Shown here: positions 16,934-22,807 of the stretch, in pieces | How positions within the stretch are numbered: position 1 is the stretch's first letter | How the letters are laid out: each line of letters starts with the position of its first letter | NCBI GenBank assembly: GCA_023475835.1 | Contig: JAMCVM010000011.1 | Span: 1-48,162, forward strand | Length of the DNA stretch: 48,162 bases | DNA from: Bacillota bacterium | GTDB lineage: Bacteria > Bacillota > Sulfobacillia > Sulfobacillales > Sulfobacillaceae | Direction of reading: 5' to 3' | Program-made: the position numbers and the translations under genes | The notes under the pieces: model-generated | What the model was told of the DNA's origin: nothing | Databases searched by the model: none | Seen by the model: only the letters and a program-made list of their open reading frames with translations

Positions 16934-17677
16934 TCAGACCATGGTGAGACCGCCAGACACGGAAAGTACTTGACCCGTAATGTGACGGGATTGGTCTCCC
17001 GCCAGAAACAAGATGGATTGGGCAATGTCTTCGGGCTCGGCGATTTCCTTGAGCGGAATTCGGCGGATCATTTTGGCAATCAGTTCATCGGCACTGTGGC
17101 TGTTGTCTTGGAGAATGCGGGTTCGGGTGGGTCCGGGGGACACACAATTGATTCGGATATGGTGACGGGCCATTTCTTGGGCCAGGGATTTCGATAAAGC
17201 GATAATCCCACCTTTGGCCGCCGCATAGACCGCTTCGCCAGCCATTCCCACCCGGCCAGCATCCGAAACCACATTGACGACCGTTCCCGATTTTCTTTCG
17301 ACCATGGCCGGCAACACGGCGCGCGTGGTATAAATAACGCCCCACAGGTTGGTGTCGATCACTCGATTCCAGTACTCAGGCGTTTCTTGGAGAAACGGGG
17401 TCGTATCCGTGTAGCCGGCATTGTTGACGAGGACATCGATCGGTCCGAAGCGCTGCTCAATTTCGCGGTGGCCCTGCGCGACCGCAGAGGACACGCCTAC
17501 GTCTACGACCGCAGCCAAAACCTCCGACCCTAAAATGTTTTGCGCCAGAGCGGCACTTTCGGCATGCAATGCCCAGATTGCTACTTTGGCGCCCTGTTGA
17601 AGGAATAGGCGCGCGCTGGCCAGGCCAATGCCTTGTGCGCCCCCGGTAATCAGCACGGTGCGATCCGTAAAGGTCAT
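16934..17677 (-). CDS. SDR dehydrogenase, BadH-like
   Basis: A 247-residue short-chain dehydrogenase. The cofactor site is TGGAQGIG (residues 11-18); NNAG follows; the catalytic set is the Ser of NVVSDAGRVG and Tyr/Lys in YAAAKGG. The blocks VSDAGRVGMAGEAVYAAAKGG and ITGQVLSVSGGLTM resemble 2-hydroxycyclohexanecarboxyl-CoA dehydrogenase (BadH), an enzyme that oxidises a hydroxy group on an alicyclic acyl-CoA. That comparison is from memory of the family. The start codon overlaps the stop of the CoA-transferase-like beta subunit by 4 nt (ATGA). As the last gene of the cluster it probably oxidises a hydroxyacyl-CoA made upstream by the hydratase. Confidence 0.8.
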   Translation of the reverse strand: MTFTDRTVLITGGAQGIGLASARLFLQQGAKVAIWALHAESAALAQNILGSEVLAAVVDVGVSSAVAQGHREIEQRFGPIDVLVNNAGYTDTTPFLQETPEYWNRVIDTNLWGVIYTTRAVLPAMVERKSGTVVNVVSDAGRVGMAGEAVYAAAKGGIIALSKSLAQEMARHHIRINCVSPGPTRTRILQDNSHSADELIAKMIRRIPLKEIAEPEDIAQSILFLAGDQSRHITGQVLSVSGGLTMV

Positions 17678-18528
17678 AGCGCCCCCTCGCCGGCAGACGG
17701 CGCTTCGAGCAAGCTGCGCTCGTCCATCCAGGCTTGGTCCTGGTGTTTGGCTGCCCCTGAGCCTTTTTGCATCTCCATATGACGCAGACCCAAAGGATCG
17801 TGCTGACGAATGAAAGCGACCACTTCTGATGAGGGTTCGGGGGTGGTAGCGACGGGACTGGCAGCCGTTAAATGAAATCCGGTGGCCGACTCCACGGCTG
17901 TGAGATCGACGCCTGGGTGGAGTTGGCGAATTTGCATCTGGCCATGGGCCCCTTGAAAATCAAACACGCCAAGATTGGTTACGAGCACGCTGGGGGCGCC
18001 AATTCGACCCAGACGCTGTTCGCGTTCTGCAGTGTTGCCCGCTCCGCTTCGAAAATCTACTGCAGCTACGACAGTGCGCGGGTTGTGATCGAGCAAATAA
18101 TAGCAGAGTTTGGAGAGATGGCTGGTATCTTCCGGGATGCCCCGCGACCCGACCAGAGCAACCTTGGGATTCGCCCATGGTCCGATGGTACTAATGTTGA
18201 CGCTGCCCCGCTGGTCGATCTGGGCAGGGTTGATCCAGATTCGAAATTTATCTAAGAAAATGGCATCGAACACTTCTTCCATCCCTAACGCGATGCCGCG
18301 CTGCGCTAGAATGAAAAATTGGCCCAAACTTAGCGAAGGCAAAAAGTCGACGTCCATGCCGGATTCCGGAGTGGCCAACAGCGCAAGGTCTGGAGCATAG
18401 AAGGCCTTGGCCACTAGGCCGGCTAGGGCGCCAAAGGCGGTGACTGAGCTGACTAAGACTTCTCCCGACAGTTCTCGGGCCATAGCATCAATCATCAATT
18501 CATCAAAGCGGTATGGCTCCGTCGTCAT
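17674..18528 (-). CDS. CoA-transferase-fold beta subunit, IpdB-like
   Basis: A 284-residue protein of the family I CoA-transferase beta fold. The block VTNLGVFDFQGAHGQMQIR followed by LHPGVDLTAV resembles IpdB, the beta subunit of the steroid ring-opening hydrolase of actinobacteria, more than ordinary 3-oxoacid CoA-transferases. Also seen are DQRGSVNISTIGPW and GSRGIPEDTSH. IpdAB hydrolyses a cyclic beta-diketone acyl-CoA (C-C bond cleavage) and does not transfer CoA. I start at the ATG at 18528, eight bases after GGAGG; a GTG at 18537 overlaps that site. The alpha subunit gene ends 15 bases upstream. The C-terminus has about 20 extra charged residues. IpdB-like is confident at family level; substrate is inference. 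Confidence 0.8.
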   Translation of the reverse strand: MTTEPYRFDELMIDAMARELSGEVLVSSVTAFGALAGLVAKAFYAPDLALLATPESGMDVDFLPSLSLGQFFILAQRGIALGMEEVFDAIFLDKFRIWINPAQIDQRGSVNISTIGPWANPKVALVGSRGIPEDTSHLSKLCYYLLDHNPRTVVAAVDFRSGAGNTAEREQRLGRIGAPSVLVTNLGVFDFQGAHGQMQIRQLHPGVDLTAVESATGFHLTAASPVATTPEPSSEVVAFIRQHDPLGLRHMEMQKGSGAAKHQDQAWMDERSLLEAPSAGEGAL

Positions 18529-18543
18529 CGTGCTCACCTCCTG

Positions 18544-19416
18544 TTATGTTGATGAAACTCCGAGCCGTTGTTTCAGGGCTAAGGCTCCGCCTTGATGTTT
18601 CACGTAGGTCTCGTGATCTTGACCGATGACCTCCTGAGTATAGTTCAGCCAAAGATCGGGATCCGACGCCTGGTGGAGATAATCCTTCATCGCCCCCAGG
18701 TCCAGACGATAGCCAGGAGCCATGATGGTAGGATGGGCCCCCCACGGCGCCTCGATGACGCCGGCGGTGTGAATGCGCAGAATTTGGATTCCGGCGCCGA
18801 GATTTTGGAGGTCCTTGGAACTCAACACCTGTTCGCAGGATAGAAAAGTGGTTTTGGCTGCTTTGGCACAGAGCACGTCGACATGGCTGTCTCCAAGAAT
18901 GACTCCATTGCCTGCGCGGTCGGCATAGTTCGCGTGAATCAACGCAAAATCCGGAGACAGTGGGGGGATGGCGACTACGTCATCCCCGCCAAATGGATCG
19001 GCGATCACGCGAAAGGCCGGGTTGACGCTGAGGACATCGGTGGCCAGCCCCGCATGGGTGGGGATAAAAGGAATGCGTTTGATGGTCGCATCCAATCCGG
19101 CCATGATCGTGTACTCCGTCCATTCTTGAAATGCGACGCTTTGGTTCTGGCGAGCGGCTCGGAAGTGGGGAGCTAGGCCGAGAAACTCGAATCCAACGAA
19201 AGCATAGAGGACTTCGCGTACGGCTCCGACACCGATTAACAGATCAACATCGGGGCCACCGACATCGACGATTAGGCGAAGGTCCTTCACCCCACTACGC
19301 GCCAAGGCGCGAACCATGGCCATCGGCTTCCGCGAGATAGAGGACCCGCCGATAGCGACGGTGGCCCCATCCGGAATCTGGCCCGCCATATCATCGAGAA
19401 GAACTAGTTTGTTCAT
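18544..19416 (-). CDS. CoA-transferase-fold alpha subunit, IpdA-like
   Basis: A 290-residue CoA-transferase alpha-fold protein. Segments shared with IpdA include SRKPMAMVRALARSGVKDL, VGGPDVDLLIG with VLYAFVGFEF, RIPFIPTHAGL and VIEAPWGAHPTIMAPGY. A glutamate at residue 101, just before MAGLDA, lies about where I recall the catalytic Glu of IpdA; this needs an alignment. The oxyanion-type glycine loop near the N-terminus reads IGGSSISR in place of the GGFG seen in typical CoA transferases. The ATG follows GAAGGAG. With the beta subunit it should form an alpha2beta2 enzyme that hydrolytically opens a ring of a CoA-bound substrate, within the same operon as a hydratase and SDRs. Confidence 0.8.
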   Translation of the reverse strand: MNKLVLLDDMAGQIPDGATVAIGGSSISRKPMAMVRALARSGVKDLRLIVDVGGPDVDLLIGVGAVREVLYAFVGFEFLGLAPHFRAARQNQSVAFQEWTEYTIMAGLDATIKRIPFIPTHAGLATDVLSVNPAFRVIADPFGGDDVVAIPPLSPDFALIHANYADRAGNGVILGDSHVDVLCAKAAKTTFLSCEQVLSSKDLQNLGAGIQILRIHTAGVIEAPWGAHPTIMAPGYRLDLGAMKDYLHQASDPDLWLNYTQEVIGQDHETYVKHQGGALALKQRLGVSST

Positions 19417-19466
19417 CTTCGGCTCCTTCGTCGATTCTTGACACTGTCCATTGCGTTCCTTCCGGC

Positions 19467-20270
19467 TTAGGGCTCATCAGACAGCCTCTTGGTTACTTCA
19501 AAAGGTCCTGACGTGATGGTCAGCCCGCCATCGACCCGAATTACTTGCCCGGTGATGAAGCGCGCCGCATCGCTGGCTAAGAAGACGGCCACATCGGCCA
19601 CGTCGTCAGGGGTGCCTAATCGCCCCAGAGGCGTCTCGCGGCTCACCGCGCGTTCGAATTCGTCGTAGCGCTCACCCATATAGAACCGGGCTGAATCCGT
19701 TTCTACGACTCCGGGGGCGATGGTATTGCAGGTAATGTGCTTAGGCCCGAGTTCGTAGGCCAAGTATCGAGCAATGGTCTCGACCGCTCCCTTGGCCGAT
19801 CCGATGGTGGCATAAAGCGGGATAGTGTACGGAGTGCCGTGTCCTGACATGGTAATAATTCGGCCGCCGCGGTCGCCCATCAGTGGGACGGCCCGTTGCA
19901 CCGATTGGATAAGGCTTTGCACAATCAGCCGATACGTCCGTTCCACATGATAGGGCTTGACCTCGGACAGTCGCTTAAAGGCCGTGGCGGCGGCGTTGGC
20001 CATAAACACATCCAGGCGATTCCAATGCTCTTGAATGTGATCGAACATTCGGTCCACATCAGTTAAATCTTCCAGGTTAGCGGCAATGACTAAGGCGTCA
20101 CGACCCAAACCACGAATTTCCTCGGCCACCTGATTGGCCAGATCAGCTTGGCGATGATAGTGAATAGCTACATCAGCGCCCGCTCGGGCCATCGCTAAGG
20201 CCGTGGCCCGACCAATGCCGCGGGAACTGCCGGTGATTAACACCTTTTTTCCTTCTAGCGGAGCGGTCAT
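19467..20270 (-). CDS. SDR oxidoreductase, FabL-like
   Basis: A 267-residue short-chain dehydrogenase/reductase. The cofactor motif is TGSSRGIG; NNAG is replaced by ANAAA (as in FabL). The catalytic tyrosine and lysine are separated by six residues (YATIGSAK), the spacing of FabL-type enoyl-ACP reductases and not the classical three. C-terminal RFITGQVIRVDGG is typical. It may reduce or oxidise an acyl-CoA or acyl-ACP double bond; in this cluster a CoA substrate is likelier. The chosen ATG at 20270 overlaps the stop of the upstream SDR by 4 nt. A longer start at 20294 is less likely. Confidence 0.78.
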   Translation of the reverse strand: MTAPLEGKKVLITGSSRGIGRATALAMARAGADVAIHYHRQADLANQVAEEIRGLGRDALVIAANLEDLTDVDRMFDHIQEHWNRLDVFMANAAATAFKRLSEVKPYHVERTYRLIVQSLIQSVQRAVPLMGDRGGRIITMSGHGTPYTIPLYATIGSAKGAVETIARYLAYELGPKHITCNTIAPGVVETDSARFYMGERYDEFERAVSRETPLGRLGTPDDVADVAVFLASDAARFITGQVIRVDGGLTITSGPFEVTKRLSDEP

Positions 20271-21058
20271 GAGGTCAGACCCTTTCCCAGCCATTCGCCG
20301 CCATCAATGACCAGCACCTCGCCGTTGATGAAATCCGCATAAGGGGATACAAGATAGGCGGAAGCTTGGGCAACCTCTTGGACCGTGCCGAAGCGACCGA
20401 CCGGCACCTTGGCCAAGGTGCGGGCTCGGTCCTCTGGATCTTGCCACAAGGGGCGGGCTCCTTCGGTATCAGTTGGCCCGGGGCAGATGGCGTTTACGCG
20501 AATGCGATGAGGAGCCCATTCGACCGCAAGACTCCGGGTGAGGGCGACGACGCCGGCTTTGGCAGCGACGGAGTGCACTGTGCGTGGACCTCCCGTCCAA
20601 GCATAGCTCGCGACCACGGAGAGAATTCTTCCGCCTCGGCCGGAACTGATCATGGCCATACCAGCACGGCGAGCACAATAAAACGTGCCATGAAGAACAC
20701 TTTGAACGACGCTGTTCCACCCGTTTACGGAAAGTTTTTCGCTATCAACAATGAAATTGCCTGCAGCGGCGTTGACTAAGATATCGACCTGTCCGAAGGC
20801 CTCCAATGTGCGGTCGAACAAATTATCGACAGCTTCCGGTTGACGTACGTCGGTGGGAATGGCTAACACTTCGCATCCTTGGGTTCTCAGTCTGGATTCC
20901 GCCTCGGACAAGTGGTCGGGGTTGCGACTGGCCAACACGACCTTTGCGCCAAGCAGAGCTAATTCGGAAGCGATGCCAAATCCAATGCCGGTGCCTCCTC
21001 CGGTGATGATTGCGACTTGACCTTTAAGGGTGTCTATGGGGAGCATAGTGTTGGGCAT
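20267..21058 (-). CDS. SDR of the 2,4-dienoyl-CoA reductase (FadH/DECR) type
   Basis: A 263-residue protein with TGGGTGIGFGIASELA at the cofactor site and VNAAAGNF in place of NNAG, a hallmark of the DECR branch. The usual YxxxK tyrosine position holds no Tyr (HSVAAKAGVVALTRSL), as in dienoyl-CoA reductases. FINGEVLVIDGGEWL closes the domain. These enzymes reduce 2,4-dienoyl-CoAs with NADPH. The ATG at 21058 has GAAAGGAG six bases upstream; the frame extends to 21169 but would then overlap the hydratase gene. Confidence 0.8.
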   Translation of the reverse strand: MPNTMLPIDTLKGQVAIITGGGTGIGFGIASELALLGAKVVLASRNPDHLSEAESRLRTQGCEVLAIPTDVRQPEAVDNLFDRTLEAFGQVDILVNAAAGNFIVDSEKLSVNGWNSVVQSVLHGTFYCARRAGMAMISSGRGGRILSVVASYAWTGGPRTVHSVAAKAGVVALTRSLAVEWAPHRIRVNAICPGPTDTEGARPLWQDPEDRARTLAKVPVGRFGTVQEVAQASAYLVSPYADFINGEVLVIDGGEWLGKGLTS

Positions 21059-21116
21059 AAATGACTCCTTTCGCCGGGGTATCCGGATTTTACACGTAAA
21101 TATAAGTCTACAACTT

Positions 21117-21911
21117 TTACTGCCCCTTAAAACGCGGGATTTTCTTTCCCAGGAATGAAGATACCGCATCTCGATGGTCTTGGGTATGGCTGAGCCGTTC
21201 TTGGGCTGCGATTTCTTTGCTGAGAGCCAGATCCAACGATAGACCGTGGCCGTCTTGGACTAGTTGTCGAATTTCGGCGTAGGCTAGCGTGGGACCCTCG
21301 GCAAGTTCATAGGCCAATTCTCGGGCCCGCGTTTCGGCAGCCTCAGCGCTCGGATGGACCATTTCGGCCAACCCGAGTTGAACCGCCTCTTGGGCCTGAA
21401 TCGCCGATCCGGTGAGAAATATCCTAAGGGCTTGAGCATCGCCGATCATCCGCGGTAGAAGATAGGACGTGCCGGTGTCGGGAACGAGCCCGACTTTAAC
21501 AAATCCGGCGATCAACTGAGCGTCAACGCTTAAGACCCTAAAGTCGCAAGCCAAGGCCAGGGACATTCCACCGCCCACGGCCGTGCCCTGGAGCAGTGCA
21601 ATCGTTGGCTTAGGCATGGTCTGCAGGGCCTGCACCAAAGGAACGTACTCGGATCGGACCAATTCGCCGAGCGATACACGGTGTTCGGCATAGTTCTCAT
21701 CTAGCTCTTTGAGGTCTTGGCCCACCGAGAACGCGCGACCCGCACTAGAGAGCATCACCACCCGAATCGCCGAGTGGTCAGCGGCCTCTTTTAGCGCATG
21801 CTTCAGTTCCATTCGCATCTGATGATTCAGCGCATTAAGCGCTGAGGGACGGTTGAGGACAATGTGGGCTAATCGGTCCTCTTCCACATATTCAATCGTT
21901 TCGTATATCAA
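21117..21911 (-). CDS. Enoyl-CoA hydratase/isomerase, PaaG-like
   Basis: A 264-residue crotonase-fold protein. The oxyanion-hole strands are GRAFSVGQDLKEL and LLQGTAVGGGMSLALACD; the active-site region reads FVKVGLVPDTGTSYLLPR with an Asp typical of PaaG-like isomerases in place of the second hydratase Glu. The end, DAVSSFLGKKIPRFKGQ, also matches the PaaG group. Members isomerise or hydrate unsaturated or epoxy ring acyl-CoAs. The start is TTG at 21911, after AGAAAGGGA. It lies second in the cluster, 110 bases after the alpha/beta hydrolase gene. Confidence 0.85.
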   Translation of the reverse strand: MIYETIEYVEEDRLAHIVLNRPSALNALNHQMRMELKHALKEAADHSAIRVVMLSSAGRAFSVGQDLKELDENYAEHRVSLGELVRSEYVPLVQALQTMPKPTIALLQGTAVGGGMSLALACDFRVLSVDAQLIAGFVKVGLVPDTGTSYLLPRMIGDAQALRIFLTGSAIQAQEAVQLGLAEMVHPSAEAAETRARELAYELAEGPTLAYAEIRQLVQDGHGLSLDLALSKEIAAQERLSHTQDHRDAVSSFLGKKIPRFKGQ

Positions 21912-22021
21912 GAGCGTGTCCCTTTCTGTGTAGAAAATGTCACCACCGGCCCCAACGGATGAGCGTAAATCCCCCGCGCTGACGGACTGTTCTTAGTCCG
22001 CTCGAGGACGATTTTCTTCTC

Positions 22022-22807
22022 TCAGGGGGTCGAATGGTTCTCTAAAAATGTGGCGATAGCTTGATTCGTCGCCTCCGGGGATTCCATATGAGGCAAGTGC
22101 CCAACGTCCTCTAACACGACTAAGGTCGCATTTTTCAACCGAGCTTTTAAGGCTTCGCCGTAGGCCAGGGGAATGATTGGATCATGGCGTCCCCACAAAA
22201 GTAATACCGGCATGGTAAGAGTCGTCAAATCAACTTCAGGGTCGGCGATGATGCTCGCCGCCCCTTGGTATTGTGCGTACATTTTCCGACCGGCGCTAAG
22301 TTCGCGTGCGTCCTCTAAACTGCGGTATGGGGTAATTCTTCGAAATTTCTCGGGGTCATAGACCATTTTTGAGGCGAACTGGGCGGGATCGAAAGCCAAG
22401 GGGTCCCCCAGCGGAACATCCGGCAGATTTACGCCCACCGCCGCTAACAAAATAAGATGGGAGACGCGCTCGGGAGCGAGAGACGCGGCAGTTAAGGCGA
22501 CTCTTCCGCCCATGGAATTGCCCGCTAAGACCATGCGGTCGACCCGAATTCCCGCGAGCCAACTGAGCAGAGCCGGGGCGATATCTCTGACGGTTTGGAT
22601 CTCCGAGGGCCGTTCAGAACGGCCAAATCCGGGCAAATCCGGCGCCACCACGCGATAGTCAGCGCTAAAGTGACGAATTTGGCTGGAAAAGGCACGCCCC
22701 GTGCCTCCACCGCCGTGCAAGAGAACCATATTTGGACCCAACCCCTGCTCAAACCAACTCCACCGAGTTCCTAGCCAGGCGATCTCCTGACGAATGATTT
22801 CACTCAT
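22022..22807 (-). CDS. Alpha/beta hydrolase, C-C bond hydrolase-like
   Basis: A 261-residue alpha/beta hydrolase with LLHGGGGTGRAF (oxyanion loop), VVAPDLPGFGRSERP, the nucleophile elbow LAGNSMGGRVAL (Ser in GNSMGG), the acid loop LLWGRHDPIIPL and catalytic His in VGHLPHMESP. GNSMGG and this overall layout are those of meta-cleavage-product hydrolases such as MhpC, HsaD and BphD. The substrate is not provable from sequence. It starts the cluster (AGGAGG seven bases before ATG) and is divergent from thiL, sharing a 200-base promoter region. Confidence 0.8.
   Translation of the reverse strand: MSEIIRQEIAWLGTRWSWFEQGLGPNMVLLHGGGGTGRAFSSQIRHFSADYRVVAPDLPGFGRSERPSEIQTVRDIAPALLSWLAGIRVDRMVLAGNSMGGRVALTAASLAPERVSHLILLAAVGVNLPDVPLGDPLAFDPAQFASKMVYDPEKFRRITPYRSLEDARELSAGRKMYAQYQGAASIIADPEVDLTTLTMPVLLLWGRHDPIIPLAYGEALKARLKNATLVVLEDVGHLPHMESPEATNQAIATFLENHSTP

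Follow-up and report, generated by a model that had tools for sequence, protein, structure and literature searches.

Enzymes of the IpdAB type open a ring during steroid C/D ring breakdown, and the occurrence of a similar gene pair in an operon of a Sulfobacillaceae genome raises the question of whether this operon opens a ring or builds one. The operon lies in a stretch of 48,162 nucleotides (the window), positions 1 to 48,162 of contig JAMCVM010000011.1 in the Bacillota assembly GCA_023475835.1. An initial annotation described its seven genes as a plausible pathway for opening an alicyclic or polycyclic acyl-coenzyme A (acyl-CoA). Our analysis leads to a different reading, in which the operon is more likely the missing gene set for the cycloheptane-ring tips of fatty acids than a steroid-ring-breaking pathway, and in which an IpdAB relative is possibly run in reverse to close the ring. 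That acid- and heat-loving bacilli have omega-cycloheptyl fatty acids in their membrane lipids has been known since 1983. No published gene assignment for the route from the seven-ring precursor to the primer was found in the open literature searched, a body of work that excludes most subscription journals.

We are fairly confident that the cluster belongs to the omega-cycloheptyl pathway. The fuller account, in which the operon makes cycloheptanecarboxyl-CoA as the starter of these fatty acids and the IpdAB-like pair closes the ring, is probably correct. Its observed basis is the gene content, the conservation of the cluster, the kinship of the pair with IpdAB, the co-occurrence with paaABC, the linkage to fabF and plsX, and the fit with those published lipid data that can be matched to genomes.

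The seven open reading frames, all on the minus strand, run from 22807 to 16934 at the positions given in the initial annotation, in the order alpha/beta hydrolase, crotonase, DECR-type short-chain dehydrogenase/reductase (SDR), FabL-type SDR, alpha subunit, beta subunit and BadH-type SDR. The gaps between successive genes are 110, 58, -28, 50, 15 and -4 bases, and on this spacing we read them as one operon. The genes, and two glutamate codons discussed below, are as follows.

22022..22807, minus strand: alpha/beta hydrolase, first gene (Pfam Abhydrolase_1, E 4e-32)
21117..21911, minus strand: PaaG-type crotonase with a TTG start (best PDB match 2ej5, E 3e-56; Thermus PaaG 6sla/3hrx, E about 1e-50)
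20267..21058, minus strand: DECR-type SDR (human mitochondrial DECR 1w6u, E 6.5e-58; NCBIfam PRK07677)
19467..20294, minus strand: FabL-type SDR (Bacillus subtilis FabL 3oic, E 9e-46; NCBIfam FabL)
18544..19416, minus strand: alpha subunit, IpdA-like by sequence, tree and fold
17674..18528, minus strand: beta subunit, IpdB-like by sequence and fold; it could also start at a GTG at 18537
16934..17677, minus strand: BadH-type SDR (NCBIfam BadH is the best match)
19114..19116, minus strand: codon of alpha Glu101, aligned with IpdA Glu105 and invariant in 31 sequences
18364..18366, minus strand: codon of beta Glu55 in a PESG motif, invariant in 31 sequences and aligned with GctB Glu54 and IpdB Glu58

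Kinship of the alpha/beta pair with IpdAB

The alpha/beta pair is closest to IpdAB by sequence, tree and fold, yet it forms a separate sister clade. The initial annotation had drawn this link from remembered family blocks, and database searches upheld it. The motifs RKPM, FIPTHAGL and EAPWGAH are present in alpha, NLGVFDF and LHPGV are present in beta, and IpdA and IpdB are the best PDB matches of the two subunits. Alpha matches IpdA of strain RHA1 (6co6, E 4e-43) and of Mycobacterium tuberculosis (6con, 2e-37) ahead of GctA (2e-22) and AibA (2e-21), and beta matches IpdB (E 8e-20) ahead of GctB (4e-11). Comparison of AlphaFold models (predicted local distance difference test, pLDDT, 82.8 for alpha and 70.8 for beta) also ranked IpdAB first, at Z 32.5 for alpha against 31.2 for Gct and 27.7 for AibA, and at Z 19.9 for beta with Gct a close second at 18.6, a lead over Gct that is small for both subunits. 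A tree built from 57 alphas, with cluster types taken from gene annotations, places the window clade (support 99/99) as sister to the steroid-cluster IpdA clade (100/100), the two being joined at 100/99, and apart from Gct-like paralogs and from the pairs of coenzyme-M/alkene-type clusters. Steroid IpdB forms a separate 100/100 clade, and the pair thus falls outside the steroid-cluster IpdAB clade with both subunits. Profiles, PDB matches and the alpha tree likewise keep it out of the Gct and Scot/Pca transferases, as had been predicted.

The known IpdAB (Rv3551/Rv3552, and its counterpart in Rhodococcus jostii RHA1) hydrolyses the ring of COCHEA-CoA in steroid C/D ring breakdown. The window pair shares its two-subunit CoA-transferase fold and presumably its type of substrate, a cyclic beta-oxo acyl-CoA. 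It differs in the identity of alpha (32-43%), in carrying PESG in beta where IpdB has (T/S)DGEA, in the proposed closing rather than opening of a ring, and in its gene neighbours. No methylhexahydroindanedione propionate (HIP) genes (ipdC, echA20, fadE, thiolase) occur in the operon, and the best IpdC-like protein of the window genome reaches 35% and is unlinked. Steroid/HIP catabolism was set aside as the main reading on the lack of linked HIP genes and on the separate clade, which bears out the doubt about a steroid substrate already expressed in the initial annotation. An IpdAB-like annotation does not, by itself, imply steroid degradation.

The glutamate expected for a hydrolase is present, as alpha Glu101 aligns with IpdA Glu105, which is mutated to Ala in structure 6coj (IpdAB E105A). 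Alpha E98 and E101 and the beta PESG motif are invariant in 31 clade sequences. The conserved PESG also brings in the main rival explanation, in which the same pathway operates and the pair is a CoA transferase whose beta Glu55 attacks the CoA ester and passes CoA either to phenylacetate, above all where the genome lacks PaaK, or to a ring acid in free form. In three MAFFT modes this glutamate falls in the column of the GctB nucleophile Glu54, and Gct is a close second in fold. The same column, however, holds IpdB Glu58, so that the alignment is compatible both with retention of the CoA-transferase nucleophile in beta and with its loss; the loop differs from that of GctB by two residues. In IpdAB this nucleophile is replaced, by Gly57 in RHA1 (PMC5380842). 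The tree joins alpha to IpdA and not to Gct, and although GctAB (glutaconate CoA-transferase) and AibAB (decarboxylase) share the fold, scores and tree place the pair with IpdAB, and neither keeps a glutamate at the alpha 101 position (Gct has Gln, AibA has Gly). On balance a transferase role appears unlikely. AibAB also serves a fatty-acid starter pathway, that of isovaleryl-CoA.

More distant IpdAB-like pairs were also observed. A Sulfobacillus acidophilus AMDSBA3-like genome (G019) encodes a second, divergent pair (L034:7479-9130; 35%/31% to the window pair) whose surrounding acyl-CoA cluster is large and includes an acyl-CoA dehydrogenase, two CaiB-type CoA transferases, two 3-hydroxyacyl-CoA dehydrogenases and crotonases; the beta of this pair has VGN in place of the window ESG, and its alpha clusters with that of a pair on a Simplicispira plasmid (L049). 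Plasmid coenzyme M/alkene-type clusters of Nocardioides JS614 (L045:8980-10754) and M. chubuense NBB4 (L048:8980-10727) carry another such pair, with an alpha Cys at the Glu101 position.

Distribution of the cluster and of omega-cycloheptyl lipids

Strong alpha orthologs (E below 1e-100) occur in 28 of 61 genomes, all within the taxonomic order of the window, and a scan of named genomes yielded 38 loci from Sulfobacillus, many Bacillota metagenome-assembled genomes (MAGs), Alicyclobacillus shizuokensis, A. kakegawensis, A. herbarius and A. sp. ALC3 (A. curvatus), and some ANGP1 and soil MAGs. Conservation of the cluster thus extends over Sulfobacillaceae-like genomes, a small number of Alicyclobacillus and certain deep-branching MAGs. 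The positives include a complete genome (G095), and the Sulfobacillus-type relatives agree with the Firmicute-like origin inferred earlier from the letters alone. Most loci examined keep the order crotonase, DECR-type SDR, FabL-type SDR (not in all), alpha, beta and BadH-type SDR; given this recurring order and the invariant residues of the clade, the cluster is not a chance arrangement. In the tree, the Alicyclobacillus alphas adjoin the S. acidophilus and S. harzensis sequences (96/89), a placement suggestive of gene transfer between distant groups.

Where genomes and published lipid data can be matched, the two largely agree. Among 41 Alicyclobacillaceae genomes, six carry the alpha gene, including A. 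herbarius, A. kakegawensis and A. shizuokensis, which are omega-cycloheptane species (PMC5023266, Table 1). No alpha match was found in the omega-cyclohexane type strains of A. acidocaldarius, for which omega-cyclohexane acids of about 51% and 33% are given, and A. acidoterrestris. In Sulfobacillus, 11-cycloheptanoyl-undecanoate is the main fatty acid of S. harzensis and is found elsewhere in the genus only in S. acidophilus (PMC8489842). The whole cluster is present in S. harzensis (L064) and in the S. acidophilus type strain (G005). It was not found in genome G023, which we take to be S. thermotolerans. All five named producers are therefore positive and three named non-producers negative, with S. 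benefaciens-like MAGs as the one exception. A 2014 genome comparison places omega-alicyclic fatty acid genes in all Sulfobacillus (PMC4378227), and a 2021 lipid table lists the omega-cycloheptyl acid in two species only (PMC8489842).

The gene types of the operon would also suit an omega-cyclohexyl primer pathway from shikimate. In the ansatrienin pathway, a reductase of the SDR type, ChcA, works with the delta3/delta2 isomerase ChcB, and the two systems are alike in using such a pair to reach a saturated ring-carboxyl-CoA primer, there cyclohexanecarboxyl-CoA. The ChcA/ChcB ring is six-membered, and the cluster is missing, the pair and close DECR orthologs included, from the cyclohexyl producers A. 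acidocaldarius and A. acidoterrestris; because of this absence the shikimate route was rejected, and we regard it as barely credible.

The surroundings of the cluster are those of fatty-acid synthesis, as judged from gene content. In the ANGP1/Centralia MAGs a fabF gene is followed by the FabL-type SDR, alpha, beta and BadH-type SDR, with plsX next in one locus (L082), and in Alicyclobacillus a fabF homolog adjoins the cluster on the opposite strand. These neighbours bear on the catabolic ring-cleaving hydrolase of the initial annotation, which IpdAB as the closest family and the retained alpha Glu101 would favour, as would the use of BadH-type SDRs and crotonases in the breakdown of alicyclic acids. 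The operon, however, lacks an acyl-CoA dehydrogenase and a thiolase, IpdC-like proteins of the window genome do not exceed 35%, and the crotonase belongs to the PaaG type, with only 30% identity to an EchA20-like protein (L046). The pair is accompanied instead by SDRs of the dienoyl- and enoyl-reductase types and by a PaaG-type isomerase, fabF or plsX lies nearby in some genomes, and the cluster largely tracks omega-cycloheptyl fatty acids across the species matched. It is therefore more probable that the cluster forms a ring and saturates it than that it opens one, and we consider a ring-opening pathway improbable.

Proposed route from phenylacetate to the primer

Omega-cycloheptyl acids are thought to derive from 2-hydroxycyclohepta-1,4,6-triene-1-carboxyl-CoA, a shunt product of the phenylacetate pathway that arises by spontaneous intramolecular Knoevenagel condensation after epoxidation of phenylacetyl-CoA, isomerisation and hydrolysis of the oxepin (PMC7497051). 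The PaaA/PaaC epoxidase family was found in 33 of the 34 genomes that carry the cluster and in 30 of the remaining 45 (Fisher p 6e-4, with kinship not corrected for). The window genome is the sole cluster genome with no PaaA/C match, and its contig C14 ends inside the region where the sister genome G001 has paaABCD. Fused PaaZ was discarded as a discriminator, being missing from most genomes, cluster-bearing and others alike. In the ANGP1 and Centralia MAGs G066 and G067 (L139, L140), a Gct-like alpha gene and a PaaA-like gene are some 2 kb apart.

No PaaK or PaaZ match was found in the close relatives G000, G001, G009, G010 and G013, and all of these except G000 have PaaA/C; in the latter four genomes the epoxidase therefore seems unlike part of ordinary phenylacetate catabolism. 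The absence of PaaK speaks for the transferase reading, in which the pair would supply CoA to phenylacetate, and the presence of PaaK in many other cluster carriers speaks against it.

A shunt product might also call for salvage, with the pair hydrolysing a dead-end seven-ring CoA ester to an open chain, thereby protecting CoA, and the SDRs having a separate function. This direction corresponds to known IpdAB chemistry, and alpha and beta stand alone in S. benefaciens-like genomes. Elsewhere, however, they are sandwiched between ring-reduction genes, and Paa-bearing species without cycloheptyl lipids (A. acidocaldarius, S. thermotolerans) lack the pair, so that we hold salvage to be very improbable.

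In the preferred account, in which the operon builds the cycloheptyl primer, we infer every enzymatic step, ring closure above all. According to the literature, the action of phenylacetyl-CoA epoxidase (encoded by paaABCD at another place in the genome), followed by isomerisation to oxepin-CoA and hydrolysis, yields a linear 3-oxoacyl-CoA with a terminal aldehyde, from which intramolecular Knoevenagel condensation produces 2-hydroxycyclohepta-1,4,6-triene-1-carboxyl-CoA. The IpdAB-like pair would catalyse this ring closure, and the roles of the other enzymes are derived from the chemistry of their families. The BadH-type SDR (247 bits against a BadH model cut-off of 431; S, Y and K conserved) is proposed to reduce the 2-oxo group of the ring. 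The DECR-type SDR, in which the DECR active-site Y, S and K are conserved, would act as a 2,4-dienoyl-CoA reductase of the ring and form the 3-enoyl-CoA. The crotonase, which conserves the PaaG-type Asp region (GLVPD), is a candidate for the delta3/delta2 ring isomerase giving the 2-enoyl-CoA, a shift known in the PaaG family (PMC7497051), or alternatively for the isomerase forming oxepin-CoA. The FabL-type SDR (227 bits, under the cut-off of the NCBIfam FabL model; catalytic residues conserved) would serve as the enoyl-CoA reductase yielding the saturated cycloheptanecarboxyl-CoA, and fatty-acid synthase would elongate this primer. Tropone/tropolone biosynthesis from the phenylacetate pathway has the same proposed seven-ring CoA precursor and the same dependence on paaABC; here, by our proposal, the ring is fully reduced to a fatty-acid primer and its closure is enzyme-assisted, not spontaneous.

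The pair is proposed for ring closure because of the reaction of its relative. IpdAB hydrates and then retro-aldol-cleaves a cyclic 6-oxo-1-ene-1-carboxyl-CoA (PMC5380842), and the reverse joins the alpha carbon of a 3-oxoacyl-CoA to a distal carbonyl in an aldol condensation that releases water, the Knoevenagel step by which the seven-membered ring forms. Taken alone, closure by the pair is possible, with our judgement leaning slightly against it. We are more hesitant still about the narrower claim that Knoevenagel cyclisation is the dedicated function of the pair, as an IpdAB-type enzyme working in the ring-forming direction, in what would be, as far as searched, the first gene set assigned to the omega-cycloheptyl lipid. 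If the pair does close the ring, a catabolic fold that cleaves rings would have been adapted to building them. The pair could then serve as a biocatalyst in making seven-membered carbocycles, and its genes would mark, at the genome level, a lipid trait on which the taxonomy of juice-spoilage and biomining bacteria draws. In either case the operon offers a compact, testable gene set for omega-cycloheptyl primer synthesis.

Several points weigh against this account. None of the seven proteins has, to our knowledge, an established activity. In vitro the Knoevenagel step proceeds spontaneously, and therefore no enzyme is strictly needed; the beta Glu, lying in an ESG motif, could point to CoA transfer, and the pair may instead act as a CoA transferase or a dehydratase, or in salvage. 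The numbers in the trait match are small, and the positives are not all independent, as carriers share related genes. S. benefaciens-like MAGs carry the genes in two loci, alpha-beta and hydrolase-crotonase-DECR-FabL-BadH, despite a type strain with no cycloheptyl acid above 1% (PMC8489842). ANGP1 genomes lack a close DECR homolog. Finally, genome G003 has all the reductase, crotonase and hydrolase genes (contig C155, L122) and no alpha match genome-wide, through loss or an assembly gap.

Other features of the operon

The alpha/beta hydrolase is found in only some of the clusters, with orthologs of 50-60% identity adjoining it in L024, L032, L056, L070, L079 and L120-L125; it is perhaps a thioesterase or an oxepin/shunt hydrolase. 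Its identification as HsaD was rejected, with HsaD and MhpC-type models far under cut-off. For the DECR-type SDR, the start at 21058 is favoured over the first start codon of the reading frame at 21169 because AGGAG precedes it. A promoter and terminator scan of the operon gave fewer sites than expected by chance and was thus uninformative, and a search for viral relatives found none. In several Sulfobacillus-type loci (L027:13658-14422 and neighbours, L060, L062, L064, L086), the cluster is followed by a second DECR-like SDR (~46%) and a HadB-like MaoC dehydratase, which may be accessory to it.

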